Shown here piece by piece: positions 14,863-30,958 of a stretch of DNA of 34,984 nucleotides. A model generated the notes under the pieces. That model saw only the letters and a program-made list of their open reading frames with translations, ran no database searches and had not been told where the DNA came from. Positions within the stretch are counted from its first letter, which is position 1. Every line of letters begins with the position of its first letter. The translations under genes were made by a program, and so were the position numbers. Source of the stretch: Bacteroidota bacterium (GTDB taxonomy: Bacteria; Bacteroidota; Rhodothermia; Rhodothermales; Bin80); NCBI GenBank assembly GCA_028873925.1, contig JAPPNA010000085.1:1-34984 (forward strand). The letters are read 5' to 3'.

Positions 14863-14992
14863 TAACAATCCAGCGTAAAATCCTGCGGCTGATCACTTTA
14901 TCATTGACGGGACACGGTTTTCAAAGATTGATGATTTCGGCAATTGGCTCCGGCCAGATTGATTGTCAAAAGGATGAGTGCTGGAACAGGCA

Positions 14993-15718
14993 ATGGCATC
15001 TTACGACATGATTGTACTGGTTGATTTCGACAATTTGCGGGGACAATGGCGTAGTGGGCGCTTGTCACAGGTGATCGACCTGTTGACTGACAGACTCTAC
15101 GCCTCGGAGGTCCGCAGTGGGAGCGAGGTCAGATTTAGGCTCTACGGAGGATGGTTCTTTAACGTTCGGCCCTCATACCAGGCCGCGGAATTGTTGACAC
15201 AAATCTCCTCCAGCGAGTTCCCCAGGTCGCGCAGGATTCCAGGTAGTGGTGATAGGGTGATGGTCCATGTAGAATTGGCCAAATCGCTGGCCTGCGACCC
15301 CACGCAGGTGCTCACCCATACCTTCAGGCACAATCGTCCACCTCGGAAACTCACTTGCCGTAAAATGCCGTTCGATGGGTGTGCGTACATGCACGACTGT
15401 AGGCTATGGGCAGTCCGTAAACTAGTCCAACGCAGTCAGTGCCCCGGCAAAAAGTGCGAAACGAGACTACCTCAAGTGCTCAGGCGCTCGGAGCAAAAGC
15501 TGGTTGATTCCATGATGGTGGCGGATCTGGCCCATTACGCCAATAATCCAGCGCGGCCTGTTGCGGTAGTGTCTGGTGATGATGACCTGTGGCCCGGAAT
15601 CCGCCTAGCGTTACTTAGCGGAGTGCGTGTGACGCACATCGTTCCCGATGGGCACAAGTATCGTTCTAGAGCATATAAGGGGTTGACGACGAACCTGTAT
15701 TCCCGGGTCAACATTTAG
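14993..15718 (+). CDS. NYN/PIN-like nuclease-domain protein with internal cysteine cluster
   Basis: A 241-residue protein. The N-terminal strand IVLVDFDNLRG (D11, D13), KLVDSMMVADLAHYA (D172, D178) and the VAVVSGDDDLWPGI strand (D196-198) reproduce the acidic active-site layout of NYN domains, which are PIN-like ribonucleases. Between them lies an insertion with C122, C130, C136, C150 and C155 (C-x7-C-x5-C, then C-x4-C), probably a zinc-binding knuckle. The ATG at 14993 is preferred to a GTG at 14978. It ends 11 nt before the NACHT-type ATPase gene, so the two are co-transcribed. The likely role is an RNA-cleaving effector of the cassette. A housekeeping RNA-processing role is the alternative. 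Confidence 0.85.
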   Translation: MASYDMIVLVDFDNLRGQWRSGRLSQVIDLLTDRLYASEVRSGSEVRFRLYGGWFFNVRPSYQAAELLTQISSSEFPRSRRIPGSGDRVMVHVELAKSLACDPTQVLTHTFRHNRPPRKLTCRKMPFDGCAYMHDCRLWAVRKLVQRSQCPGKKCETRLPQVLRRSEQKLVDSMMVADLAHYANNPARPVAVVSGDDDLWPGIRLALLSGVRVTHIVPDGHKYRSRAYKGLTTNLYSRVNI

Positions 15719-15729
15719 CTACGCCAGTA

Positions 15730-17733
15730 ATGACAGATCTTGCTTCCTTTGAGCGCATTGTTACGAGTTTCGTGGACGATTACGATTTTCGGCGTGGAAT
15801 TCTCATAATGGAACGCGGTGACGAACTCGTAGAGGTTTCCGTTACCGCCACTCCCAAAGGAATCACAGTGACCAGAGACGGAGGTGCGTTGCCGGCTACA
15901 GAATGGATCTACAAGGACCTTGCTAAGCTGGAATTACTGGCACGCAGGATCGTTGACCTCGTTCATCCGCCGGAGCATTTTGTGTCCCCGCGCGGCAAAC
16001 TCGTTGATGGTGTGGATGTGGATCCTGATGGCACCGAACGAACGATTGATGATGCGTGCGGCACATTGCGAAATGTCTTGGGACGACCCCTGGCCGGGAC
16101 TACATCTGTCCTCTATCTGACTTCCGAAGCCGGTGAAGGTAAGACATCCCTGATAGAGCAGGTTGCCGTGCAACAGGCCGAGGCATACTTGAAGAAGAAG
16201 GCAGATTGGCTTCTGCTGCCGGTACCTCTCGGAGGCAGGCCATTCCTACGACTTGATGATGCTATTGTTGCTGCGTACGTAAACAGGCTCAAATTCCCAT
16301 ACTGGTATTACGGGGGGTTCATTGAGCTCGTGCGCCTGGGAGCTATTGTGCCCGCGTTCGATGGCTTTGAGGATATGATCGCAGACTCGCGGTCTCAAGC
16401 GGCAAGGTCCGCTTTCAAACATCTGATTGGCGAGCTGGAATCCCAAGGCAGTATTCTCGTTGCCGCGCGTCGGGCATTTGTTGACCTGTCATTTGGAAGC
16501 CAAGCGGACCTGTGGAAGGCTGAATCTCCGGGTCAGGATGTGCAGTTGCGTCGATTGGCTCTCAATAGATGGGATAAGAGCGTGTTTCTCCGGTATGCAC
16601 GAAAGAGGCAGGTAATCCTGCCCGAGGCACTTTATGAGGATGTGACGGAACAGCTGCGCACCCCCAAGCATCCAGTGCTGACCCGAGCGGTGTTGGTGAG
16701 GCGCTTGATTGATGTAGCGCTGGAGGAGAATGACCTTTCGGCGTTCCTTGCCCGAATCAGCGAAGATCAGACGAATTATTTTTATGAATTCGTTGAAAGC
16801 ATCGTTAGGCGGGAAGTTGAGTACAAATGGCATGATCTGTCGGGGGACAAGAATGCCCGCCTACTGAGTCTGGAGCAGCACCATCAGCTGCTCTCCATGT
16901 TGGCAGGCGAGATGTGGCTGTGCTCAGTTGAAATGCTGGGGAGGGAGATGCTGGACATGGTGGTGGAGATTTTCGCGGAAGATCAGGATCTTCCACCCTC
17001 TGTTGCATGGCAGGTACGTGAGCGCATTGGTGACCACGCTCTCCTGCATGTGCAGAGAGAGAATAGACGTGACACCGTGGAATTTGATCACGATGACTTC
17101 CGCTTGTTCTATTTGGGGCAGACCCTTGGACACGCTTTGGTTAATGCTGATGCTACATCCGTCGAACAGATCTTGGATACTAAGACTCTGACCGCACCAG
17201 CTATCGCTGAAGCGACCCGTCTCGTACGACAGGCCAGACCCACGGCCGCGCGCGAAGTGTTGGACCTCCTGGATGAGACCCTTAAGTATGCATCTCAGGT
17301 GTCATATCTCAGAGAAAACGCGGGAATGCTCCTGCTTTCACTGCTTGACAATCTGGGTATCGGGCACACCATCAGGAGGGGTACTTTTGGACTGGATTCT
17401 CTGGCGGGACGCAGTTTTTCAGGTCTCGTCGTGAAAGATTCATCTTTTGCTGCGACCAGACTTAAGGACACTCAACTGCACCGGTGCACCTTTAGTCGCT
17501 GCCGCTTTGAGAGGCTGGTTATCGATGAACCACGGGACATTCAGCATACGGAGCTGAATGAGTGCCAACTGGATTCGATCGCAATAGGCCAAAGCGGTGG
17601 TGAGATGCGCTCTTACTTTGATACTGCGGATATTCGCTGGCAACTCAATCATCACGGATTCAGCCTTGGTGCGCAGGGCCAGGACGAGGACGCGGCGGAG
17701 ACTCCATCAGGAACGATTTCAAGCTGGATATAG
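15730..17733 (+). CDS. NACHT/STAND-type P-loop ATPase with pentapeptide-like C-terminal repeats
   Basis: A 667-residue protein. Residues 1-120 form an N-terminal region of unknown family. The Walker A motif is SEAGEGKTS (132-140). The Walker B-like VPAFDGFEDM (207-216) has the acidic pattern of NACHT ATPases, and LVAARRAF fits the sensor-1 strand. A helical region follows, including the IEFDH/VEFDHDDFRLFYLG block common near the end of NACHT modules. Residues about 553-616 show pentapeptide-like spacing (SFSGL, SFAAT, TFSRC, RFERL). NACHT proteins are signal-activated oligomerising switches, many of them antiphage sensors in bacteria. The tight linkage to a NYN nuclease suggests it senses a trigger and licenses the nuclease. 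The acidic C-terminus ends just before a small gene in another frame, possibly its lost C-terminal domain. Confidence 0.86.
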   Translation: MTDLASFERIVTSFVDDYDFRRGILIMERGDELVEVSVTATPKGITVTRDGGALPATEWIYKDLAKLELLARRIVDLVHPPEHFVSPRGKLVDGVDVDPDGTERTIDDACGTLRNVLGRPLAGTTSVLYLTSEAGEGKTSLIEQVAVQQAEAYLKKKADWLLLPVPLGGRPFLRLDDAIVAAYVNRLKFPYWYYGGFIELVRLGAIVPAFDGFEDMIADSRSQAARSAFKHLIGELESQGSILVAARRAFVDLSFGSQADLWKAESPGQDVQLRRLALNRWDKSVFLRYARKRQVILPEALYEDVTEQLRTPKHPVLTRAVLVRRLIDVALEENDLSAFLARISEDQTNYFYEFVESIVRREVEYKWHDLSGDKNARLLSLEQHHQLLSMLAGEMWLCSVEMLGREMLDMVVEIFAEDQDLPPSVAWQVRERIGDHALLHVQRENRRDTVEFDHDDFRLFYLGQTLGHALVNADATSVEQILDTKTLTAPAIAEATRLVRQARPTAAREVLDLLDETLKYASQVSYLRENAGMLLLSLLDNLGIGHTIRRGTFGLDSLAGRSFSGLVVKDSSFAATRLKDTQLHRCTFSRCRFERLVIDEPRDIQHTELNECQLDSIAIGQSGGEMRSYFDTADIRWQLNHHGFSLGAQGQDEDAAETPSGTISSWI

Positions 17734-18619: not shown

Positions 18620-19786
18620 TCAGGGCTGCTCCACCTGTTCAACGGCGGGGCTGTTGCCGCCGTAGAAGGAGGTGTCCAGATTGCGGGTGGCCAGAATAAT
18701 GAGCAGGGGCAGCACAAAGAATATCAGCGCAATATACCCGAACGCATAGGCCCTGTTTTTCACCACGAGTCTACCTAGCCATTCGGCCAGGACTATCGGG
18801 ATCTGTCGCAGGCGCTTGAACGGCAGGAATAGCAATACGCCGCAGCAATTGAACATCAGATGCGCCAGCGCGACCTGCAGCGCAAACATACCGTGCTCAC
18901 TGCCGCCACCGGCAAAGACCAGTGCGGCTAACAGTGCGGTAATTGTGGTGCCGATATTCGCACCCAGGACAAAGGGGAAAATCTGAGACACCGTTACGAT
19001 CCCGGCACCCACCAGCGGCACCGTGACCGAGGTGGTAATGGACGAGCTCTGCACCATCACCGTGACCAGTGTACCAAACAGCAAAGCGACAACGGCGGGA
19101 CCGAACAGATAATTGTTGATCAGACGTTCGGACCGTCCCAACAGCAGGGCGCGCAGCATGATCACCAGATAACGGAGTGATAGGAACAGGCATGTTACGC
19201 CGACGATCAGTACCAATACGCCGTTCTGGCCCATCAGGTCGATCATCAACCCTACTACCGGAGCGGTCAGCACCTCAACAAAGTTGAGCAGCTCAGTTCC
19301 GCCTACATCTGACAGCGCGTTTGCCAGGCCATCCGCGGAACGAGACAGAAAGCCCGTGACCAGCTCCAGCGGAAAAAAGATGGCTACGGCCATGAGATTG
19401 AAAAAATCATGCACTGTCGCCGCACCCATCGCACGCCCGAATTCATCCTTACGGACGATATGTCCCAGCGATACGATGGTATTGGTCACGCTGGTGCCGA
19501 CGTTGGCCCCCAGCATAATAGGAATCGCCCCCGGCACGGTGAGTCCGCCTGCAGCCACCAAGCCGACCACCAGGGACGTAACCGTGGATGAGCTCTGCAC
19601 CAGCGAAGTGGCCAGAATGCCCACAAACAGGCCCACAAACGGATTGGCCGTGGACTGAATCAGACGTTCCGCGAACCCGGATCCGAGGAGCTTGACCGAC
19701 TCCCCCATAAGCTCAAGACTCGCGAAGAACAACAGCAGCACGGCTAGGAGGGCCAGAATGCGCAGCAATGTGGCGGACCGACTCAT
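18620..19786 (-). CDS. Na+/phosphate cotransporter (NptA/SLC34-like)
   Basis: A 388-residue polytopic membrane protein with two inverted-repeat halves, each carrying the family's QSSS motif (64-67 and 246-249). Each QSSS is followed by a glycine-rich LGANVGTS or LGANIGTT block. SLC34/NptA-type proteins import inorganic phosphate with Na+. The length fits forms that lack the C-terminal PhoU-like domain. It is the last gene of a minus-strand operon, 34 nt after a T9SS surface protein and downstream of a TonB-dependent receptor. This points to a joint outer- and inner-membrane phosphate acquisition system. A PhoB/PhoP-like box precedes the operon. Confidence 0.92.
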   Translation of the reverse strand: MSRSATLLRILALLAVLLLFFASLELMGESVKLLGSGFAERLIQSTANPFVGLFVGILATSLVQSSSTVTSLVVGLVAAGGLTVPGAIPIMLGANVGTSVTNTIVSLGHIVRKDEFGRAMGAATVHDFFNLMAVAIFFPLELVTGFLSRSADGLANALSDVGGTELLNFVEVLTAPVVGLMIDLMGQNGVLVLIVGVTCLFLSLRYLVIMLRALLLGRSERLINNYLFGPAVVALLFGTLVTVMVQSSSITTSVTVPLVGAGIVTVSQIFPFVLGANIGTTITALLAALVFAGGGSEHGMFALQVALAHLMFNCCGVLLFLPFKRLRQIPIVLAEWLGRLVVKNRAYAFGYIALIFFVLPLLIILATRNLDTSFYGGNSPAVEQVEQP

Positions 19787-19820
19787 AAATTCGGGCGGTT
19801 ATCGTGGGGCAAGAGCAGGA

Positions 19821-21578
19821 CTACTTTACCAGTGTCATCGTGTGGGCCATGCTGCCGGATTCGGTATCCAATCTGTACATGTACAGCCCGCTGGGCAGAT
19901 GAGAGGCATCATAGGTCACTTTATAGGTGCCGGCCGCCATCTGCTCATCCACCAGGACGCTGATTGCGCGTCCCATCAGGTCGTAGACCGTAAGGCGTAC
20001 GGATTGGGCCTGATCCAGACCAAATTCGATCGTCGTGCTCGGGTTGAAGGGATTGGGATAATTCTCTCCCAATCCAATGTCCGCCGGAACCGGCCCGTCC
20101 ACGCCCTCGACCGCTACCGCAAAGTCTCCCACAAAACCCAGTTCATTGAGCGCGGTCCATCCCGTCAGCCAGTGATCAGCTCCGAAGGCACCGACAAAAC
20201 TGACCTCGGTAAAAAATGTGTCATTGGCCGGATACGGAGAGCGCGCCATGGAAAAGGCCGGGCTTTCACTGAATGGACGCGGATCCAGCATGCCGCCTCC
20301 CTCAAGGCCGAAGGGGCCTTCAACACCACGGTCGATCCCGCGGAGCATCGGGTCGGCGGCTACGTTGCCGTTGGCCCGCAGATGCCCGAGCACCGCCGCA
20401 CCGAAGGCCGGATCGTCCACATCAATCCAACTGGTCAGGTCCGGGCCTGCACCGAAATCCCACCATAGGTTGTGGTGCAGGGCAAGATCCCCGGCCTCAA
20501 AGCGCTGGCGGCTGTCCTCCGTCTTGGATCCCGTGTTATCAATGTCCTCAATATGCAGGGCAAATCCACCTTTGCTTGAATTGAATTGCGTGAAAATGGA
20601 GTTGTGATAGAAACCACCGGTATTGTCGCGGAACATGAGCATTTCGCCGCGATCCGACTCAGGGGACGCCGACGAGCCTGCGCCGACATAAGTGGCATTG
20701 TAGATGGTGGGACGGGCATACGGTTGGAAGTGCTCATCTCCGCTGGCCCCATCCTGCTCGGCCGCTGCTCCGGCCTTGTCGGGTGCCTGAAGTACAAACC
20801 AGAACTGGCCGTTTCCCCGCCAGCCCTGATCCCAGTCCACGGCATCGTCGGAATTAAAGACGCTCACGAAGTACCTGATGCTGACCGTGCCGCCGAAGAA
20901 TTCCACGCCATCGTCACCACTGGCATAGACCTCAATGTACTCCAGCGTGGTACCGCTGCCGACCGCGCCAAGCGTGAGGCCCTGGATTTCATTGCCATCG
21001 CTTTCCCCAATGTTGATCCCAGTATGGCGGATGGACGCATAGCGCATCACCCCGGAATCGTCGTCGTCATGGTTGCCGCCGTATTCCGCACGAGTGTCGC
21101 CATCCGCCAGCACCTCGTTGACCCCTTCAATCTCCCTGAAATCACCATTCGCATCGCCCGGGTTATTGGTTTGCGCACGGCCCAGAATGACCACGCCGCC
21201 CCACAGGCCGCGATCAGTGTAATCCAACAGGTCCGGTCCGGAAATATTGTCCTGGACTGACGTGAAGATAATGGGCTTGTCGGCGGTACCCTCGGCCATA
21301 ATCCTGCCGCCGCGAGCGATCACCAGACCGGCGGCATCCACATTCTGTGTGTCTTCGGCCTTAATGACCGTGCCGGCCTCAATTGTCAGTACGGCTCCCT
21401 CTTCAACGATGACGAGCTCGTCCAGCCTGTATACATTCTTAGCGGTCCAGGTTACTGCCTGTCCTGCCTGAATGGAGGCATCTGTAACCAGGATCACCGG
21501 GCGCATTTCAACATCCGGATTCTGGGCTTGGGCCAGCGTTGGAAGCAGCGGGGCAAGGAAGAAAGCAAGATGTTTCAT
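19821..21578 (-). CDS. T9SS-sorted surface protein with beta-helix-like repeats
   Basis: A 585-residue protein with a signal peptide (MKHLAFFLAPLLPTLAQAQ). A region of repeated short beta-strands follows (LTIEAGTVIKAE, GLVIARGGRIMAEG, YASIRHTGINIG, LEYIEVYASGDDGVEFFGG), consistent with a right-handed beta-helix, and includes an acidic NHDDDDSG patch. The C-terminal 80 residues are a type A T9SS sorting domain (NYPNPFNPSTTIEFGL, VYDLMGR, LPSGLYMYRL). A frame from 21629 adds a leader ahead of the signal, so 21578 is chosen. It sits between a TonB-dependent receptor and a Na/Pi cotransporter and may capture a phosphorus-containing substrate at the surface. That role is inferred from context only. 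Confidence 0.88.
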   Translation of the reverse strand: MKHLAFFLAPLLPTLAQAQNPDVEMRPVILVTDASIQAGQAVTWTAKNVYRLDELVIVEEGAVLTIEAGTVIKAEDTQNVDAAGLVIARGGRIMAEGTADKPIIFTSVQDNISGPDLLDYTDRGLWGGVVILGRAQTNNPGDANGDFREIEGVNEVLADGDTRAEYGGNHDDDDSGVMRYASIRHTGINIGESDGNEIQGLTLGAVGSGTTLEYIEVYASGDDGVEFFGGTVSIRYFVSVFNSDDAVDWDQGWRGNGQFWFVLQAPDKAGAAAEQDGASGDEHFQPYARPTIYNATYVGAGSSASPESDRGEMLMFRDNTGGFYHNSIFTQFNSSKGGFALHIEDIDNTGSKTEDSRQRFEAGDLALHHNLWWDFGAGPDLTSWIDVDDPAFGAAVLGHLRANGNVAADPMLRGIDRGVEGPFGLEGGGMLDPRPFSESPAFSMARSPYPANDTFFTEVSFVGAFGADHWLTGWTALNELGFVGDFAVAVEGVDGPVPADIGLGENYPNPFNPSTTIEFGLDQAQSVRLTVYDLMGRAISVLVDEQMAAGTYKVTYDASHLPSGLYMYRLDTESGSMAHTMTLVK

Positions 21579-21710
21579 GGTCAGCAGTAATGGAAAGCGC
21601 ACTGCCGGTCCGTTAAGACATCCCGACACGATTCACCGGAGCGGCCGGCCGCAGTCGCGATGCGTTGCCCGTGCGGGAGAAACCATACCGGCAGGTCCAC
21701 ATGCTGTGGC

Positions 21711-24700
21711 TCAGTCAATGACATAGGTGATTCCCACAGAAAAAATGCGTCCTCTTGAAAACGACAGGTAGTCATAAGTCTGACCCTTGAAGGTCTGGAT
21801 CTGCCGCACGCTGGTGCCCAGGAGATTCTTGGCCGAAAGCTTGACACGGAAGTTTATCGGCAGATCCTGGGTGAAGGTGACATCCAGATCACGACGCGCT
21901 TTTTCAAAGACATCCGGCGTAGCTCCCTGGGTCACCGCCAGCAACCGGTCGCCGAACACGGTGTAGTACACCCCAAGTGTGGTGCCCGTACGGAAGTTTT
22001 CGTAGCTCGCATTGAGATTCAGCAGGTACGGAGACTGCCCCTCCAGAGATCGGGTGGTGGCAGCACCAGGGTCGGAAGCCCGGATGATGATCAGCTCTTC
22101 TTCCGGAATATCCACCACCGACTGGACCCGGGAAAAATTGCCGCCCAGAGAGATATCGCGAAGCACGGGGACCTGTATCCAGGTATCCAGCCGCTTGCGG
22201 GCCTCAAATTCAGCCCCATACACACGGGCTCGGTCCACATTCTGAAAGGACACGAAGCGGCCTTCGCCCACATTGCGGAGCACTCGTTCAATGGGATCCT
22301 CAAACGTCTTGTAGAATCCGCTGACTGCCAATAGCTCGCCGGAGCGCATAAACCACTCCCAGCGCACATCAAGATTGGTGATCAGGGTACGGTTCAGCAG
22401 GGGATTGCCCTCCTGAATATCGCCCCCGACAAAGTTGAAGCTCTGAAACGGTGCAAGCTCCCGGTAGGTCGGGCGCGCCAGCGTCCGCGTTGCCGCCAGG
22501 CGGGCGTTCATGTTCTCGCCCAGCGCCATCACCACATTCAGGGCCGGCAGCCAGTCGGTCTGGCGCAACACGCCGCGGCGCAGGGAGTCGGGGAGCATGT
22601 CATCAAAGCTCTCGGTGACCATTTCCGTGGACTCAACACGGGCACCGCCGATTACACGCACGGTACGCGCAAGCGGCATATCAAGCATGACATACCCGGC
22701 CCGAACATCTCGTGAGGCATCATAATTGGCCCGGTCCGGGGAGTTTTCCAGCACATACAACCCGGCATTGTAGGCAGTGATGTCACCGAGTGAGAGTGTG
22801 TCCCGGACCCCCAGGTTAACCTCATTGAAGTAGGCCGCCGGATCGCCGTGAAAATCGGAGAAACTGATTTCGCGGCCTTCCACATACTCAAACCGCCGCT
22901 GGCGGAACTCACGCTGCGAGTCGTCATAACGCGCGCCGAAGATCACGCGGGCCCCCAGGCCGTTCCATTGCCGGAACGGAATCGTAACATCCAGGATGGC
23001 TCCCCGGGTGTCTTCCTCCAAGTCCCGAAAATACCGTTGAGGGGGTGGGGCGTTGCCGCCGCCGAGTGTCCAGGTGGTGTCGAGTCCACCGGAGGTCTCA
23101 AAGATGTTTCGGTCGGATGAGAAGAACCGCAGATCCGGCTCATTCTGGGTGTTGCGCGCTACCGAGACACTCCACGCCATCTGAATGAGTCGGAATCCAT
23201 GCTCGCCGCGCAGCTGATAACTGCTCATCGACCGCTCTTTGTAGTCCAGGGATCGGGTGAAAAAGGTGGCGTTTCTGCTCTGGTCACGGTATCCTCCCAG
23301 CATGGTGGCTTGACTGGTTCCGCTCTGGGTGCGCAGCAGTGTGAAGGCGAACTCATGGTTGTCAGCTGGCTGGAAGGCCAATGTGCCGGAGCCGCCCCAG
23401 TTCACTTCGTCAGTCCCGCGCACATTCATAAAGGAGCCTGCCTCAAGCGGGTCTGCACGCGTAATGAGGGTCAGGTCCAGATCCGGCCCGAAATATGTGG
23501 TGCTGATCAGGTTTTCGGAACCGGCCACATCGCCGCCAACCAGTCGCCACTGGCTGAATACGCCATCGTCATAGTACTGGTAGCTGCGATTGTACGTCAG
23601 GCTACCGCTGAGTCCGAGAGGATGCCCCAGGATGTGAAGCTTACCGCCACCGGCGACTGATAAGCTGCGGTTGATCGGAGTAGAGGTCCGACTGGGATAC
23701 ATGATGGAATTGAACGCGCGCGCAAAGCTATTCAGGGAATCTGCGCGTGCCTGCCGGATGGCATTGGTTATGCCGGTTCTCAGGTCGCGCAAGTCAGCTT
23801 CCCGTGGCATCGGAGCTCCAGGCGCTTTGTCGCCGAGGATCCCCGGCAGTGCCCGCAGGCCATCGTCGCGTCCGATCCAATCAGTCGGGCTGCCCTCGTA
23901 GGTCAGAAAATTGTCAATTCGGCTGGACTGATCGTCGTAGGACCCCGATATGGACAATTGGAAGGTGAAGCGGTCCGGGAACGCTTTGGTGGCAACATCG
24001 ACCAGCCCACCGCTGAAATCCCCCGGCTTGTCAGGGGTGAACGTCTTAAGCGTAACGATCTTATCAATCAGCGCCGCCGGAAACAGGTCCAGCTGTACCG
24101 CTTTACGGTCAGGGTCGGCACTCGGCAACGTGGAGCCGTTCAGCGTGGTATTGGCATAGCGGTCTCCGAGGCCCCTGATATAGACGTATCTGCCTCCGAC
24201 CACCGACGCGCCGGTCACTTTGGTCATGGCTGCAGCCGCGTCGCCGGATCCTGACCGGCTGATTTGTTCTGACCCGATGGCATCACTGACCGCGACCGCC
24301 TTTGCGCGCGACCGCAGCAATCCGGCTTCGGAGCCTTCAATCACGGATGCCTCAATGGTTACTTCGTCGTACTCAAGTGCCTCCGGATAAAGTTGGATTT
24401 CCAGTCGGGTCAGCTCGCCGGCTGTGACCACCACATTCTCAACGGTGACCGCTGTATAACCCAGATAGTTGACGATGAGCGTGTGAATCCCGGCCTCCGT
24501 TTCAAAGGAAAAATCACCGTTTAGATCTGTCGCATCGCCGGTTACGGTGTTGGCCACGGTGGCCGAAGCGCCAATGAGTGTCTCACCCGTACTGCCATCA
24601 ACGACCACACCGGCAATGGTGCCGGTCTGGGCGCGGGCGGCCTGCACCAATCCCAGAACTCCAATCAGAATCAGAGCGCAATTTCGCGGGACCGAGAGAG

Positions 24701-24719
24701 TAACCATAGCGGGTAACAT
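21711..24719 (-). CDS. TonB-dependent outer-membrane receptor with CarboxypepD_reg domain
   Basis: A 1002-residue protein. A signal peptide ends near VQAARAQ; an ATG at 24707 is an alternative start. A CarboxypepD_reg domain (GTIAGVVVDGSTGETLIGASA...LNGDFSF) occupies about 32-115. The plug is at about 140-260 (SEQISRSGSGDAAAAMTKVTGA, YVYIRGLGDRY, SGGLVDV), followed by a long 22-strand-type barrel ending in ISF-like YVID. Such receptors import scarce ligands using TonB energy. It is the first gene of the operon with the T9SS surface protein and the Na/Pi cotransporter. The ligand is unknown; phosphate or an organophosphate is suggested by its partners and by the upstream TTAACA repeats. Confidence 0.93.
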   Translation of the reverse strand: MLPAMVTLSVPRNCALILIGVLGLVQAARAQTGTIAGVVVDGSTGETLIGASATVANTVTGDATDLNGDFSFETEAGIHTLIVNYLGYTAVTVENVVVTAGELTRLEIQLYPEALEYDEVTIEASVIEGSEAGLLRSRAKAVAVSDAIGSEQISRSGSGDAAAAMTKVTGASVVGGRYVYIRGLGDRYANTTLNGSTLPSADPDRKAVQLDLFPAALIDKIVTLKTFTPDKPGDFSGGLVDVATKAFPDRFTFQLSISGSYDDQSSRIDNFLTYEGSPTDWIGRDDGLRALPGILGDKAPGAPMPREADLRDLRTGITNAIRQARADSLNSFARAFNSIMYPSRTSTPINRSLSVAGGGKLHILGHPLGLSGSLTYNRSYQYYDDGVFSQWRLVGGDVAGSENLISTTYFGPDLDLTLITRADPLEAGSFMNVRGTDEVNWGGSGTLAFQPADNHEFAFTLLRTQSGTSQATMLGGYRDQSRNATFFTRSLDYKERSMSSYQLRGEHGFRLIQMAWSVSVARNTQNEPDLRFFSSDRNIFETSGGLDTTWTLGGGNAPPPQRYFRDLEEDTRGAILDVTIPFRQWNGLGARVIFGARYDDSQREFRQRRFEYVEGREISFSDFHGDPAAYFNEVNLGVRDTLSLGDITAYNAGLYVLENSPDRANYDASRDVRAGYVMLDMPLARTVRVIGGARVESTEMVTESFDDMLPDSLRRGVLRQTDWLPALNVVMALGENMNARLAATRTLARPTYRELAPFQSFNFVGGDIQEGNPLLNRTLITNLDVRWEWFMRSGELLAVSGFYKTFEDPIERVLRNVGEGRFVSFQNVDRARVYGAEFEARKRLDTWIQVPVLRDISLGGNFSRVQSVVDIPEEELIIIRASDPGAATTRSLEGQSPYLLNLNASYENFRTGTTLGVYYTVFGDRLLAVTQGATPDVFEKARRDLDVTFTQDLPINFRVKLSAKNLLGTSVRQIQTFKGQTYDYLSFSRGRIFSVGITYVID

Positions 24720-24740
24720 GTACGGTTGAAGGACACGGCA

Positions 24741-24746
24741 ATTTTA
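24741..24746 (-). promoter_or_regulatory. Possible -10 box of the receptor/Na-Pi operon
   Basis: TAAAAT reads on the minus strand 22 nt before the receptor ATG. Its distance to the TTAACA repeats upstream fits an activator bound over a missing -35 box. It is assigned by position and consensus only. Confidence 0.35.
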
Positions 24747-24766
24747 CGCTGGCCCGGCGAGTTGAA

Positions 24767-24794
24767 TGTTAATTCCGCATTATCATTCTGTTAA
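24767..24794 (-). promoter_or_regulatory. Pho-box-like direct repeats (TTAACA x2, 22-bp period)
   Basis: On the minus strand TTAACA occurs at 24794-24789 and again at 24772-24767, exactly 22 bp (two helical turns) apart. A weaker ATAATG unit lies midway on the 11-bp register. PhoP boxes of Bacillus and Pho boxes of other phyla are direct repeats with an 11-bp period, and the Bacillus unit is TT(A/C/T)A(C/T)A. The site is 48 nt upstream of the receptor start and 20 nt upstream of a TAAAAT box. The operon ends in a Na/Pi cotransporter, which makes phosphate control plausible. Confidence 0.5.
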
Positions 24795-24867
24795 CAAATT
24801 GAGTGCACACTCTAGGGTCTCCTGCCCGGTGCGGGAACCGGTGCCTGCTGGCGGGATAGCCGATACA

Positions 24868-25206
24868 ATGATGAGGGTGCGCGGCCGCCCAGGGCCTTGT
24901 GCCTGCAGAGGGATCCCGGGCCCCGGAATACTCATCAGCAGGGAACGCACCGCTAACTACCAGATCACTCGTGGCATCCTTGAGATCCTGGACCGCGACG
25001 GAAACACGGACGACCTGTTTGCTCTCATCAAGGATAGGAACCTTCCTGTTGACGACATTCATGCCCGGAGACTTGCCGAGGAGTTAGTCTCCAACCCGCC
25101 CGAACTCGGATACCTCACCATATCCAACGCGCAACAACGGCGACTCCAATATTCCCATATCATCAGGATTGCCGGTGATGTTGATGGCATTGAACGGATT
25201 ACATGA
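24868..25206 (+). CDS. Small ORF upstream of the methyltransferase, possibly a remnant
   Basis: The frame is open from 24766, but the first half of the translation is low-complexity (Pro, Arg, Gly) and not protein-like. The C-terminal 80 residues (RGILEILDRDGNTDDLFALI..., PVDDIHARRLAEELV) look like genuine helical sequence. The stop overlaps the methyltransferase start as ATGA (25203-25206), suggesting translational coupling. ATGs at 24868 and 24871 are possible starts. It could be the truncated 3' end of a restriction or specificity gene, or a small partner protein. No family was recognised. Confidence 0.38.
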   Translation: MMRVRGRPGPCACRGIPGPGILISRERTANYQITRGILEILDRDGNTDDLFALIKDRNLPVDDIHARRLAEELVSNPPELGYLTISNAQQRRLQYSHIIRIAGDVDGIERIT

Positions 25207-25949
25207 ACGCGGCAGTTGAGTTTGGGGACTTTCAGACACCGCACGCTCTGTGCCGTCAGGTGTGCTATGTCCTGTCGCAATCCGGCCTGTCTCCCGCTTC
25301 CATTGTTGAGCCCACTTGCGGGAAGGGATCATTTCTTCGTACCAGCACCCGGGTCTTTCCCGATTGCCGGTCCATCCTCGGATTTGAAATCAATCCGGTC
25401 TACGCTGAAGAGGTAGCAGCTATTGATGGTATTTCCGTCAGACAGGCGGACTTTTTCGCGACCGACTGGCCGGACGTTTTCAGCATGCTGCCGGAGCCTG
25501 TTCTGGTGATTGGCAGCCCGCCATGGGTCACCAATTCCTCCATCGGCTCTCTGAACGGTTCAAATCTGCCCGTGAGATCGAATCTCCTGAACATGCCGGG
25601 CATGGCCGCCATCACGGGCAGGAGCAATTTTGACATATCCGAGTGGATGATGCTTCACCTGCTTGAGACGCTCTCAGGACGGCACGCGGTACTGGCGATG
25701 TTGTGCAAGACAACAGTGGCACGCAAGGTACTCAAGCGTGCGTGGACATCCGGGTTGCCGATCGGAACAGCTTCCATGCGGTCGATTGATGCTCTCTACC
25801 ACTTTGGCGCGGCAGTGCCAGCCAGCCTGCTTGTGTGCGAAATGGGTAACGGCGCACCAGGCCGCAAGTGCATCATGTATCCGGGTATCGCGAGTGATGA
25901 ACCGTCTGCAACATTCGTGCTGATGAACGGGGGCTGGTCAGCGACGTGA
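25203..25949 (+). CDS. DNA methyltransferase (class I SAM-dependent), N-terminal half of a split gene
   Basis: A 248-residue N-terminal half of an amino-methyltransferase of the Eco57I/N6-MTase-like group. Motif I is EPTCGKGSF (about 36-44), the acidic motif II region is LGFEINP, and motif IV is IGSPPWVTN with SPPW at 105-108. The family's usual motif is NPPW, so the catalytic Asn is replaced by Ser. SNFDISEWMMLHLLETL and AMLCKTTVARKVLK are further family-like blocks. The frame ends at a TGA just after a run of five G (25928-25932), and the following frame continues the family's C-terminal region. It is probably one gene broken by a frameshift. Confidence 0.8.
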   Translation: MNAAVEFGDFQTPHALCRQVCYVLSQSGLSPASIVEPTCGKGSFLRTSTRVFPDCRSILGFEINPVYAEEVAAIDGISVRQADFFATDWPDVFSMLPEPVLVIGSPPWVTNSSIGSLNGSNLPVRSNLLNMPGMAAITGRSNFDISEWMMLHLLETLSGRHAVLAMLCKTTVARKVLKRAWTSGLPIGTASMRSIDALYHFGAAVPASLLVCEMGNGAPGRKCIMYPGIASDEPSATFVLMNGGWSAT

Positions 25950-26632
25950 AGAACGCGGAAACATATGCAGGCCTGGAAGGCACATCGCCGCTTAGATGGC
26001 GGTCAGGTGTCAAGCATGACTGTTCGCAGGTCATGGAACTTCGTTCCTGTGGCGGGAGATTCTGGGACGGACTCGGTGAATCTGTTGAGATCGAAGATAT
26101 CTTTATCTACCCAATGATGAAAAGCTCCGACTTAGCCAGGTCAGCATGGCCTCCAACGCGTCATATGTTGGTGCCGCAGAAATTCGTCGGTGAAGATACG
26201 TCGCGGATTGCAGATGAGGCACCATCAACATGGCAATACTTGCAGGCGCACGGCCCGTACCTGGACCGGAGAGCCAGCCGCATATACAGGAATCGCCCGC
26301 GTCTCTCAATATTCGGCGTTGGCGAATATACGTTTGCGCCGTGGAAAGTGGCAATATCCGGCTTTTACAAACGGCTGGAATTCAGTGTCATGGGATCCGT
26401 TGAGGAAAAGCCGGTACTGCTGGATGATACCTGCTACTTCCTGCCGCTGGCTTCCCGGGGTGATGCCGACACGGTAGCGTCGCTCTTGCATTCGGATCTC
26501 GCGCAGGGATTCCTGCGATCCCGCATATTCTGGGATGCTAAGCGCCCTATCACGGCAGGGCTTTTGTGCAGTCTCAACCTGGCGGCTGTGGCGGATCGAC
26601 TCGGCGTTACCTTACCGTCCGCGGACCGTTGA
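25946..26632 (+). CDS. DNA methyltransferase, C-terminal half of a split gene
   Basis: A 228-codon frame whose only start near the junction is a GTG overlapping the previous TGA (GTGA). Upstream of that GTG the same frame reads GLVSDV, which joins naturally to KNAETYAGLEGTSPLRWRSGVKHD, the middle of the methyltransferase family. Later blocks are YPMMKSSDLARS, MLVPQKFVGEDT, SIFGVGEYTFAPWKVAISG, LDDTCYFLPL and IFWDAKRPITAGLL, typical of the family's target-recognition and C-terminal part. The product could be made separately by translational coupling, or the two halves could be one protein in a recent ancestor. Alone it lacks the SAM-binding motif. Confidence 0.76.
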   Translation: MKNAETYAGLEGTSPLRWRSGVKHDCSQVMELRSCGGRFWDGLGESVEIEDIFIYPMMKSSDLARSAWPPTRHMLVPQKFVGEDTSRIADEAPSTWQYLQAHGPYLDRRASRIYRNRPRLSIFGVGEYTFAPWKVAISGFYKRLEFSVMGSVEEKPVLLDDTCYFLPLASRGDADTVASLLHSDLAQGFLRSRIFWDAKRPITAGLLCSLNLAAVADRLGVTLPSADR

Positions 26633-27097
26633 GGTGACAAACGGTCACAGATGAGACAACCGTTTGCCACCCAAGACCGAATCGGAGCCGAAATTCACGC
26701 TGGCCCGGCGCGCACGGTATTTCGCGACATTGGGTCCCCGCGGGGCCGTAATGCCGGGAATCACCCTGTGGCGGCGATAGGCGGACGAGCATTAACCTTC
26801 TGCTCTCGGTGGGTAATTGTCGTATTGGAATTCCTATCCGTGGTGGTCCTCAGGGGCATTGCGGTTCCCGTTTGTTTTTCTGTGGGCGTTAGGGCAGGCC
26901 AAACGCGGCTGCCCTACTGAGAGGACCTGACAGTCCTGCCGGGCGGGATTGATCCACATGTGCGGATACCCAGATCACCGTGCCACACGAGACGGTGGGG
27001 GTAAGTGCATCCTCCCCCAACAAATCGGATTCAGGGGCGTATCCTGTAAAGAGAGCTTGAATTGCGTTATGCTGGTGCCAATCAGATTCGTGAAGTC
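26633..27097. other. Gap of about 465 nt upstream of ppk1, with two adjacent hairpins
   Basis: No recognisable gene was found; an 89-codon frame at 26651-26920 has no family-like pattern. TAGGGCAG (26890-26897) pairs perfectly with CTGCCCTA (26909-26916). Six nucleotides later AGGAC (26922-26926) pairs with GTCCT (26933-26937). CCCCGCGGGG (26736-26745) is a further palindrome. The hairpins could end the methyltransferase transcript or form a leader structure for ppk1. Confidence 0.4.
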
Positions 27098-29260
27098 ATG
27101 AAAGTCGGTGATTTGACGACCCCGGCAGAAGGGATTCGGTCTGTGGAAGATGTGTCGCTTAAGGACCCCGGTCTGTACATCAACCGGGAACTGAGCCTGT
27201 TGGACTTTCAATACCGTGTCTTTGAAGAGGCTCAGGACGAGGACAACCCATTGTTGGAGCGGCTAAGGTTTTTGGCCATTGTGGGCTCGAATATGGACGA
27301 GTTCTACATGGTTCGGGTCGGCGGCCTGAAAAAGCAGATTGACCATGGGATCGTGGAGCGCTCCCCGGATGGACTGGCACCACATGAACTCTTCGTCCGC
27401 GTGCGCAACAAGGCGCAGGGGCTGCTTCAGGCGGTCCACATCTATCTCACCGATACGCTGATTCCGGAATTGGCCGACCACGGGATTTGCATCATGAATT
27501 ATGCGGATCTGTCCGAACGGCAGAAAAACCACGCGCGTAATCAGTTTGAGTCGTCCATTTTCCCGGTGCTTACCCCGCTGGCCTTTGACTCGGCTCATCC
27601 GTTCCCGCATATTTCTAATCTCAGTCTGAACCTGGCCGTTCTCATCAAGGATGAGCATGAGTATGAGCGGTTTGCCCGGCTGAAGGTCCCTGGCAGCATA
27701 CCCAGGCTGCTGCCGATCGTACCGGAACACGCAAGCCGGGCCAGCGCATGTTCGCACACCTTCGTCTGGGTTGAGCAGGTCATAGCGGCAAACCTCAAGA
27801 TGCTGTTCCCGGGGATGAAGGTCGTGGAATCGCATCCGTTCCGGATCACGCGTAATGCCGACATGACACTCCAGGAGATGGAGGCCGACGATCTGCTTGA
27901 AACCATGGAGCAGGGGGTCCGCCAGCGCCGGTACGGCTCAGTCCTTCGCCTCACCTTCCTGAAGGAAATGCCCCCGCGTATGCGCGAAATCCTGATCAAA
28001 AACCTGGAGGCCGACGAACGGGACTGCTACGAGATGAACGGACCGCTGGGTACCCGCAGCCTGATGAGCCTGCCCGGTGTCACCGAGCGGTTTGATCTGA
28101 TGTTTCCACCGTTTGTGCCGTTTACGCCGCCGCGCCTGAATAAGGACAAGCGGGATGGCGATGCGTTCATGATGATCCGGTCCCAGAACCACCTGGTTCA
28201 TCACCCCTACGATTCTTTCTCGCCGGTGATTGAGTTTCTGGAGGCTGCGGCTGAAGATCCCGCCGTGCTGGCCATCAAGATGACGCTTTACCGGGTCGGC
28301 TCACACTCTCCGGTCGTCAATGCTCTGATGCGCGCACGCGAAAACGGCAAACAGGTGGCCGTACTGGTTGAGCTTAAGGCGCGCTTCGATGAAGAAAGCA
28401 ATATCGGCTGGGCACGGATTCTGGAGCAGGAGGGAGTACATGTCATCTACGGCCTTATCGGACTTAAGACGCACTCCAAGATTGCCCTGGTGGTACGCAA
28501 GGAGGCGGATCGGATCCAGCGCTATCTGCACTTGGCCACCGGCAATTACAATAACGTTACTGCTACCCAGTATGAGGACCTGGGGTTCTTTACCGCCGAT
28601 CCTGAACTGGGTGCCGACGCAACGGATCTGTTCAACTTCTTGACCGGCTACTCCGAAAAGCGCAGCTACCGGAAACTTCTGGTAGCCCCCATAAACCTGC
28701 GCGCCCGCTTTGAGAAACTCATTCAACGCGAAATCAAACACCAGCAGGACGGACATCGGGGTCGCATGATCCTCAAGACCAATTCCCTGGTGGACACCGG
28801 TATCATTCGGCTGCTGTATGAGGCATCCCTGGCCGGCGTGCAGATTGATCTATTGGTGCGCGGCATTTGCTGCCTCAAGCCTCAGGTTCCCGGCATCAGC
28901 GACAATATCCGTGTAATCAGCGTGGTGGGCCGCTTCCTGGAGCACAGCCGCATCTACTATTTCCGCAACGGCGGACATGAGGAGATCTATCTGGGCAGCG
29001 CGGATCTAATGCCCCGCAACCTCAACAGGCGGGTGGAGGTGCTGTTTCCGGTCACCGATAAGCGGTACGTTCGGTATCTGCGTGATGATGTACTTGAGGC
29101 GTATTTGGAGGATACCATCAAGGCCCGGTATCTCCAGAGCACTGGCGAGTATGTACGGCCGCCGCGCAACGAGTCTCACCCGGCCGTGCAGAAGCGTATG
29201 CTGGCCTTGCGGGAGGAATGGCATGAGGAGGAGAAAGGTCACTTCTGGGAGCTGTTCTGA
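27098..29260 (+). CDS. ppk1: Polyphosphate kinase 1
   Basis: A 720-residue PPK1, normal length for the family. It shows the N-terminal INRELSLLDFQYRVFEEAQD, the SNMDEFYMVRVGGLK block, and the two phospholipase-D-like modules. The phosphorylated histidine is expected at H459 (GLKTHSKIALV) and the second at H627 (FRNGGHEEIYLGSADLMPRN). It reversibly polymerises the gamma-phosphate of ATP into polyphosphate at the membrane. A TTG frame from 27062 exists, but the ATG at 27098 gives the usual N-terminus. The stop abuts that of the convergent pdxH gene with no spacer. PPK2 is encoded close by. Confidence 0.96.
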   Translation: MKVGDLTTPAEGIRSVEDVSLKDPGLYINRELSLLDFQYRVFEEAQDEDNPLLERLRFLAIVGSNMDEFYMVRVGGLKKQIDHGIVERSPDGLAPHELFVRVRNKAQGLLQAVHIYLTDTLIPELADHGICIMNYADLSERQKNHARNQFESSIFPVLTPLAFDSAHPFPHISNLSLNLAVLIKDEHEYERFARLKVPGSIPRLLPIVPEHASRASACSHTFVWVEQVIAANLKMLFPGMKVVESHPFRITRNADMTLQEMEADDLLETMEQGVRQRRYGSVLRLTFLKEMPPRMREILIKNLEADERDCYEMNGPLGTRSLMSLPGVTERFDLMFPPFVPFTPPRLNKDKRDGDAFMMIRSQNHLVHHPYDSFSPVIEFLEAAAEDPAVLAIKMTLYRVGSHSPVVNALMRARENGKQVAVLVELKARFDEESNIGWARILEQEGVHVIYGLIGLKTHSKIALVVRKEADRIQRYLHLATGNYNNVTATQYEDLGFFTADPELGADATDLFNFLTGYSEKRSYRKLLVAPINLRARFEKLIQREIKHQQDGHRGRMILKTNSLVDTGIIRLLYEASLAGVQIDLLVRGICCLKPQVPGISDNIRVISVVGRFLEHSRIYYFRNGGHEEIYLGSADLMPRNLNRRVEVLFPVTDKRYVRYLRDDVLEAYLEDTIKARYLQSTGEYVRPPRNESHPAVQKRMLALREEWHEEEKGHFWELF

Positions 29261-30124: not shown

Positions 30125-30958
30125 TTATCCCCTGTTAACAGGCTTTTTGCGAGGTTTAACCATGGACTCATACCGATCCGGTACAAAGCGTTGGGTATCC
30201 ATGGGGGGCCGGATATAGTCCTGGTGTTCCTGCAAGGGGGGCAGGGCAATCGGAGGTCTTGGGATTTCTTCGTAGCGGATAGTATCCAAGAGGTGGCTGA
30301 TGCAGTTGAGGCGTGCCCGGCGTTTGTCGTTTGAATTGACGACATTCCAGGGGGATTGCGGACGGTCCGTGTACAAGAACATCTGATCTTTCGCCCTGGA
30401 GTAGTCCACCCAGCGTGACCGGGATTCCAGATCCATGGGGCTGATTTTCCAGCGCCGCTTCGGATCGTCTATCCTGCGCTGAAAACGTCGCGCCTGCTCC
30501 TCCGCACTCACGGAAAACCAGTACTTGATCAGCGTGATACCGCTCTGGATCAGCATATCTTCAAAGGTGGGACACGTTCGAAGAAATTCATGGTATTCGC
30601 GGTCGCTGCAGAACCCCATGACCCGTTCCACGCCAGCCCGGTTGTACCAGCTTCGATCAAACAGAGCCATTTCGCCCGCGCAGGGCAATTGGGCGGTGTA
30701 CCGCTGGAAGTACCATTGGGTGCGCTCACGTTCGGTGGGTTTGTCCAGAGCCACGACTTTGCAGACGCGCGGGTTGAGCGGCTGGGTAATGCGCTTTATC
30801 GTGCCTCCTTTACCGGCGGCATCCCTGCCTTCAAACAGCACCACGATCTTCTTCTCGCGCAGCCGGATGTATCGCTGCAGGCGCGCGAGTTTGGTGTGGA
30901 GTCGCGAAAGTTCCTTCTCGTATATCTTCTTGGGTAGGCGGGCAACCTGTGTGCTCAT
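30125..30958 (-). CDS. ppk2: Polyphosphate kinase 2 family protein
   Basis: A 277-residue single-domain PPK2 of class I type. The Walker A motif is EGRDAAGKG (43-51), the Walker B/LID region is MALFDRSWYNRAG (98-109), and KYWFSVSAEEQARRFQRR is followed by KRRWKISPMD, the substrate-lid basic residues. PPK2 transfers phosphate between polyphosphate and nucleoside mono- or diphosphates, usually favouring nucleotide synthesis. It is divergent from metY and lies about 0.2 kb beyond pdxH. Having PPK1 and PPK2 within 2 kb of each other suggests coordinated polyphosphate synthesis and use. Confidence 0.95.
   Translation of the reverse strand: MSTQVARLPKKIYEKELSRLHTKLARLQRYIRLREKKIVVLFEGRDAAGKGGTIKRITQPLNPRVCKVVALDKPTERERTQWYFQRYTAQLPCAGEMALFDRSWYNRAGVERVMGFCSDREYHEFLRTCPTFEDMLIQSGITLIKYWFSVSAEEQARRFQRRIDDPKRRWKISPMDLESRSRWVDYSRAKDQMFLYTDRPQSPWNVVNSNDKRRARLNCISHLLDTIRYEEIPRPPIALPPLQEHQDYIRPPMDTQRFVPDRYESMVKPRKKPVNRG

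Follow-up and report, generated by a model that had tools for sequence, protein, structure and literature searches.

In Caulobacter crescentus, the lipoprotein ElpS (CC0170) is made under phosphate starvation, and its gene adjoins those for the TonB-dependent receptor CC0171 and for a type II secretion system (T2SS), to which ElpS is linked (PMC2996285). In Flavobacterium johnsoniae, the lipoproteins FI, FII and FIII, described as relatives of ElpS and of polygalacturonases, are among the strongest phosphate-starvation-induced products; FI and FII are encoded with TonB-dependent transporters (TBDTs), FII and its TBDT within the phoBR cluster (PMC8115612). The locus considered here lies in a stretch of 34,984 nucleotides (the window; contig JAPPNA010000085.1 of assembly GCA_028873925.1) belonging to the 3.93 Mb draft genome, 98.6% complete, of a Bacteroidota bacterium of the order Rhodothermales. 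On its minus strand follow in order the genes for a TonB-dependent receptor, a surface protein and a Na/Pi symporter which, judged from sequence comparison, probably form one Pho-regulated phosphorus-scavenging operon in a marine bacterium.

The pairing of surface protein and receptor is already known from ElpS/CC0171 and from the PUSIII and PUSIV loci of F. johnsoniae, where a receptor gene is followed by one for an ElpS-type beta-helix protein and expression is induced by phosphate starvation (PMC8115612). New in the window are the anchoring by a type IX secretion system (T9SS), an SLC34-type symporter built into the locus of a family that yielded neither Pst nor Pit, and a shared TTAACA repeat. 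A literature search limited to open-licence papers returned no description of this T9SS/Na-Pi variant. With respect to C. crescentus, the window differs in gene order (receptor first, Na/Pi gene last), and with respect to PUSIII and PUSIV, as given in PMC8115612, in having a T9SS tail in place of a lipid anchor, a Na/Pi gene, and no phoBR beside the pair.

The receptor and its surface partner

Three consecutive minus-strand genes had been proposed here by the original prediction, an earlier reading of the DNA made from its letters alone, and open reading frames (ORFs) and Pfam domains confirm them (Table 1). Full-length relatives of each of the three proteins exist in other genomes, so that this is not a chance observation. 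The genes are separated by 81 bp (receptor and surface gene) and 34 bp (surface gene and Na/Pi gene), and neither gap contains a terminator-like site on the minus strand, where such sites all fall within genes and are no commoner than in shuffles. For the surface gene, whose closest named relatives come from Rhodothermaceae/Rhodothermales metagenome genomes, the ATG at 21578 (MKHLAFF..., codon 18 of the listed ORF) is the more likely start.

Pfam and NCBIfam recognise the tail of the surface protein alone, a type A C-terminal sorting domain of T9SS substrates over the cut-offs of both PF18962 and TIGR04183; among the three proteins only this one carries such a Por_Secre_tail, as had been anticipated. 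Matches to the protein occur in 59/59 genomes of the window's family and order, part of them through the shared T9SS tail only, while across the phylum its core is present in 196 of 296 genomes, and 21 plasmid records, the majority from marine Gammaproteobacteria, contain a relative. The core profile matches ElpS-like neighbours of T2SS/TBDT genes at 184–496 bits and Flavobacterium-like lipoproteins at 130–202 bits. By this homologous beta-helix core the protein is to be placed in the ElpS/FI–FIII family, the link running through ElpS-like relatives, with C. crescentus ElpS known from its paper. To call its role unassigned, as was done earlier, was too pessimistic given these described relatives (ElpS, PMC2996285; FI–FIII, PMC8115612), which lend it a family rather than a molecular activity.

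The lipoprotein anchor of the family is missing from the window protein. Its N-terminus (MKHLAFFLAPLLPTLAQAQ) is cysteine-free, and this together with the sorting domain makes it a putative T9SS-anchored relative and not an ElpS-type lipoprotein. The T9SS tail is carried by 27 of 38 aligned relatives; lipoprotein-like starts are seen in Bacteroidales, Flavobacterium-like and proteobacterial relatives, and one member of the window's own order (L078) has a lipobox without a T9SS tail. The core also occurs as tandem fusions of two or three copies per ORF (L050, L051, L056, L073, L074, L169 and others); the window has one copy.

A beta-helix-like fold had been guessed for this protein, and modelling bears the guess out. 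The AlphaFold2 model, built from 38 sequences (predicted local distance difference test 86.7, predicted template modelling score 0.82), gives alignments of some 280 residues with right-handed beta-helix proteins (Pel9A, AlgE4, polygalacturonases), with Z about 16–22 and 7–15% identity (VIA-align). For this model Foldseek by itself found nothing below E 0.001, and the assignment relies on VIA-align and secondary structure; a search of PDB sequences with the protein or its profile returned no relative of the core. The most conserved positions include acidic residues and glycines, the acidic set being exemplified by DDG-E-FGG and DD-x2-D-x-D. These features raise the possibility that the surface protein is an enzyme or enzyme activator (a beta-helix of phosphodiesterase, lyase or epimerase type) with phosphorylated or pectin/alginate-like polymers as substrates; the receptor would import the fragments set free, and phosphate would be one product only. 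The best folds are indeed the pectate lyase Pel9A, alginate lyases and epimerases, and polygalacturonases; the acidic set is highly conserved; FI–FIII were modelled as polygalacturonase-like (PMC8115612), and overexpression of ElpS raised alkaline phosphatase activity (PMC2996285). However, identity to these folds is low and the PDB profile search left the core unmatched, while refolded ElpS is reported in PMC2996285 to lack phosphatase activity. An enzymatic role is thus possible rather than probable.

The receptor adjoins the surface gene in 66 of 67 evaluable named loci from many phyla, in either gene order, the exception being L191; of the 80 named loci, 11 were cut by contig ends and two had no ORF. 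Relatives' ORFs were called mechanically, longest first, so that some genes were missed: in the window and 40 relative loci both ORFs are adjacent in 32, the surface gene of three (L060, L061, L067) was found by search but masked by a longer antisense ORF, three were cut (L054, L055, L059), and three were left without assignment in the adjacency count (L065, L075, L077). Against a receptor profile built from the window's order, receptors beside ElpS-like genes match end to end at 317–489 bits (7/7; Alteromonas, two from Pseudoalteromonas, Sphingomonas, Indioceanicola, Phocaeicola and Aureibacter), whereas 10 control receptors, seven of them from the own genome, match in the N-terminal domain only, one with a negligible second segment, at 109 bits at most. 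The own genome has no full-length paralogue of the receptor, its 28 other matches being N-terminal, ending by residue 260 at most and reaching no more than 58.9 bits against 2245 for the self-match. Adjacency and a subfamily-specific profile together indicate that receptor and surface protein are a stable pair across phyla, and in the window, too, the ElpS-like gene has a CC0171-type receptor beside it. In three loci, L084 and L086 (Pseudoalteromonas) and L079 (Alteromonas), genes for ExbB, ExbD and TonB, or the start of such a set, adjoin the pair, as though it were energised by a set of its own.

The original prediction had likened this arrangement to a Sus system with a T9SS protein in place of SusD. 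The resemblance to SusC/SusD lies in a TonB-dependent receptor gene next to that of a surface partner, but neither partner matches the Sus families: the receptor scores 48.6 bits against the SusC/RagA model TIGR04056 (cut-off 368.25), and Pfam finds no SusD domain in any of the three proteins. The receptor might also be a sensor at the surface, reporting on the availability of phosphate or organophosphate, and not a transporter. Sensing is discussed in PMC2996285, and a sigma factor lies two genes upstream of the receptor in one Flavobacterium-like locus (L223); the window locus, by contrast, has no sigma/anti-sigma pair, and ElpS was still produced after deletion of cc0171 (PMC2996285). We regard a pure sensor as most improbable.

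The TTAACA repeat and its phosphate context

The receptor ATG is preceded, at a distance of 47 bases, by TTAACA-GAATG-ATAATG-CGGAA-TTAACA; the end of this repeat at 24794 coincides with the boundary drawn by the earlier reading. Scored as three TTAACA hexamers at an 11-bp period (maximum 18), the repeat obtains 15, which 0 of 100 shuffles reached, and the strict pattern DTAACN6DTAAN7DTAACA has one exact match in the 3.93 Mb genome, namely this site. TTAACA repeats are also those of Bacillus subtilis PhoP. Scores of at least 13 occur in the 200 bp preceding the receptor in 22/33 loci of the order versus 7/302 control upstreams (other genes of the same loci). Upstream of the pair's first gene they were found in 42 of 65 loci (the named loci plus four Flavobacterium-like ones) versus 38 of 431 controls, with a Mann-Whitney p of 1.6e-19 that is optimistic because the loci are related; without the nine loci of the window's order, 36/57 reach this score. 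An E. coli-type Pho box (CTGTCAT N4 CTGTCAT) was considered and abandoned for the TTAACA repeat, the best score upstream in the window being 8/14 with no pattern, and sigma-70-like matches such as one overlapping the repeat are no commoner than in shuffles.

Pho boxes have been defined as 11-nt direct repeats (PMC4415409), and the site in the window has this form. In the flavobacterium Riemerella anatipestifer, DNA affinity purification sequencing gave TTTAACA as the motif of PhoP, which the authors describe as similar to that of ArcA (PMC9603813); the hexamer alone is for this reason not specific. Across 59 genomes, the strict pattern has 20 matches versus 3 for a reversed control, and eight of the 20 precede a receptor, a surface gene, a PhoB-like gene, or a porin/nptA/pst region. 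The decisive link of the repeat to phosphate comes from genomes G043 and G057, where five tandem repeats and a triple scoring 16/18 stand between a divergent nptA and a porin-pstS-phoU-pstC-...-pstB operon (phoU was scanned for in G043 only). The same repeat precedes a porin-like protein of about 330 residues, with no family over cut-off, at L236:2688-3665 and L095:420-1454; such a protein, likewise without a family, heads the pst operon of G043, and may be a phosphate porin of the window's order.

The neighbours of the pair in relatives also include PhoB-best response regulators. In three Flavobacterium-like loci (L224, L228, L233) a histidine kinase and such a regulator are divergent from the receptor and surface lipoprotein, a PhoR-PhoB-receptor-FII layout like that described in PMC8115612; in Alteromonas macleodii, phoB, phoR and a phosphate-binding protein precede the pair; and the elpS-cc0171-T2SS order recurs in Sphingomonas parapaucimobilis and Indioceanicola profundi. 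Sister families within the window's order have, after the surface gene, a calcineurin-like (PlcP-like) phosphoesterase and a glycosyltransferase (5 loci each), two domain types that PMC8115612 names among those for lipid remodelling.

Several observations speak against a phosphate-regulated operon. Twelve of the 20 strict matches in relatives have no evident phosphate context; with one mismatch allowed, the own genome shows no enrichment (3 matches versus 14 for the reversed pattern); and several loci do without the repeat, scores being 8–10 in 10/65. In C. crescentus, according to PMC2996285, deletion of elpS left alkaline phosphatase activity unchanged, as it did intracellular phosphate, measured by an insensitive method, and cc0171 is expressed constitutively. 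The pair might then handle a ligand without phosphorus, the Na/Pi and polyphosphate kinase (ppk) genes being incidental neighbours, the more so as adjacency to Na/Pi and ppk1 is restricted to the window's family and a major facilitator superfamily (MFS) transporter flanks the receptor in other families (14 loci). Such a reading is at odds with the Pho-box-like repeat, the PhoB/PhoR neighbours, the phosphoesterase and glycosyltransferase, and the published starvation induction, and appears very unlikely.

The symporter and flanking genes

An SLC34-like identity had been predicted for the third gene, and its two Na_Pi_cotrans repeats with QSSS motifs, together with the match to structure 9z60, agree with it; by sequence the symporter is close to vertebrate SLC34. 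It shares these repeats with SLC34 (NaPi-II) and bacterial NptA and differs from both in being embedded in what is probably an outer-membrane scavenging operon and in falling below the TIGR01013 cut-off (205 vs 306 bits). The Asp in its VHDFFN motif may be a sign of electrogenic transport, though no reading given here relies on it.

The window's family comprises 16 genomes, its own included, and the rest of the order 43. Directly after the surface gene stands the Na/Pi gene in 16/16 family genomes (15 from locus comparison, G001 from match positions), so that the three-gene order, which the original prediction had put forward for checking in relatives, is kept throughout the family. Each of the 16 has a single Na_Pi_cotrans gene over cut-off, with one weak extra below cut-off in G012 and in G014. 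PstB at E 1e-60 or better was detected in none of these 16 genomes versus 33 of the other 43, and PHO4/Pit over cut-off in none versus 11; the best PstB-like match of the own genome has 150 bits (cut-off 343). A conserved, sole Na/Pi gene where no Pst or Pit was found is the strongest argument for an operon spanning both membranes, and the operon may thus be the main phosphate entry route. Outside the family, 14 loci in which the Na/Pi gene is missing (L049, L053, L056, L057, L060 and nine others) have an MFS transporter next to the receptor or divergent from it; NCBIfam gives this transporter no phosphate-transporter identity, and it may be an alternative inner-membrane step.

The ppk1 gene divergently adjoins the locus in 15/16 family loci, the remaining contig being cut short, and in relatives, therefore, polyphosphate storage may be served by the same promoter region. 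In L039 and L040, for example, 160–170 bp separate the neighbouring, divergent ppk1 and receptor genes. In the window, remains of a type II restriction-modification system occupy 24766-26632 (+) between them, consisting of a piece that matches the C-terminal part of a restriction enzyme alone and a methyltransferase split over two ORFs; by comparison with L039 and L040, an insert appears to have separated ppk1 from the repeat. Elsewhere in the window, the ORFs at 14978-15718 and 15730-17733 (+), of 246 and 667 residues, have no Pfam, NCBIfam or PADLOC family.

Table 1. Positions of the three genes, their features and neighbouring genes in the window.
Feature	Position	Strand	Details
TonB-dependent receptor, CC0171/Fjoh_0545-like subfamily	21711..24719	-	1002 aa; Pfam CarbopepD_reg_2, Plug, OMP_b-brl_3; full-length match to subfamily profile
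ElpS/FI-FIII-like surface protein (by homology)	19821..21629	-	602 aa; profile and genome comparisons
SLC34-like Na/Pi symporter, two QSSS repeats	18620..19786	-	388 aa; PF02690 126 bits; zebrafish SLC34A2a structure 9z60, E 3.5e-58
Pho-box-like direct repeat	24767..24794	-	TTAACA-N5-ATAATG-N5-TTAACA, 11-bp period
Predicted right-handed beta-helix core, model residues 18-474	20151..21521	-	AlphaFold2 and VIA-align
T9SS type A sorting domain	19848..20060	-	PF18962 40.6 bits (cut-off 27); TIGR04183 37.9 bits (cut-off 23)
Polyphosphate kinase 1 (ppk1), divergent neighbour	27062..29260	+	NCBIfam; conserved in window's family
Polyphosphate kinase 2	30125..30958	-	PF03976 343 bits

Proposed route and its meaning

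The phosphate operon of the original prediction has gained from the conserved order, the Pho-box-like repeats, the PhoB and Pst context in relatives, and the published starvation induction of family members; phosphate regulation in this organism is the part still lent by analogy with those relatives. When phosphate runs short, the TTAACA repeats would be bound by a PhoB-type regulator and the three genes would be transcribed as one unit. The beta-helix protein would be exported by the T9SS and held at the outer surface, where it may capture a ligand that contains phosphorus, or take part in its processing (a small organophosphate or a metal-bridged phosphate being the likeliest), and hand it, perhaps as a SusD-like lid, to its dedicated receptor, which would pull it into the periplasm. 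The ligands of TonB receptors are usually larger or scarce, and for this reason an organophosphate is somewhat likelier than free phosphate as cargo. Phosphate arriving or released in the periplasm would then enter the cytoplasm via the symporter, which would take the place of Pst and Pit in this lineage. More tentatively, a single operon might have replaced both as the cell's phosphate supply in this Rhodothermales family, with the TonB receptor and its T9SS-anchored partner feeding inorganic phosphate (free or metal-bridged) or the phosphate of organic ligands to the SLC34-type symporter, an energised outer-membrane route with a sodium-driven inner step.

The way in which phosphorus gets across the outer membrane of Bacteroidota and their relatives, and the job done by the abundant beta-helix proteins of phosphate starvation (ElpS, FI–FIII), are unsolved questions that the variant in the window narrows. 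Here the pair is coupled to a single inner-membrane carrier for inorganic phosphate, and the lineage yielded no Pst or Pit gene, so that deletion of the pair should give a clear phosphate phenotype. The TTAACA repeat with its 11-bp period could, in turn, serve to read Pho regulons in these uncultured lineages.

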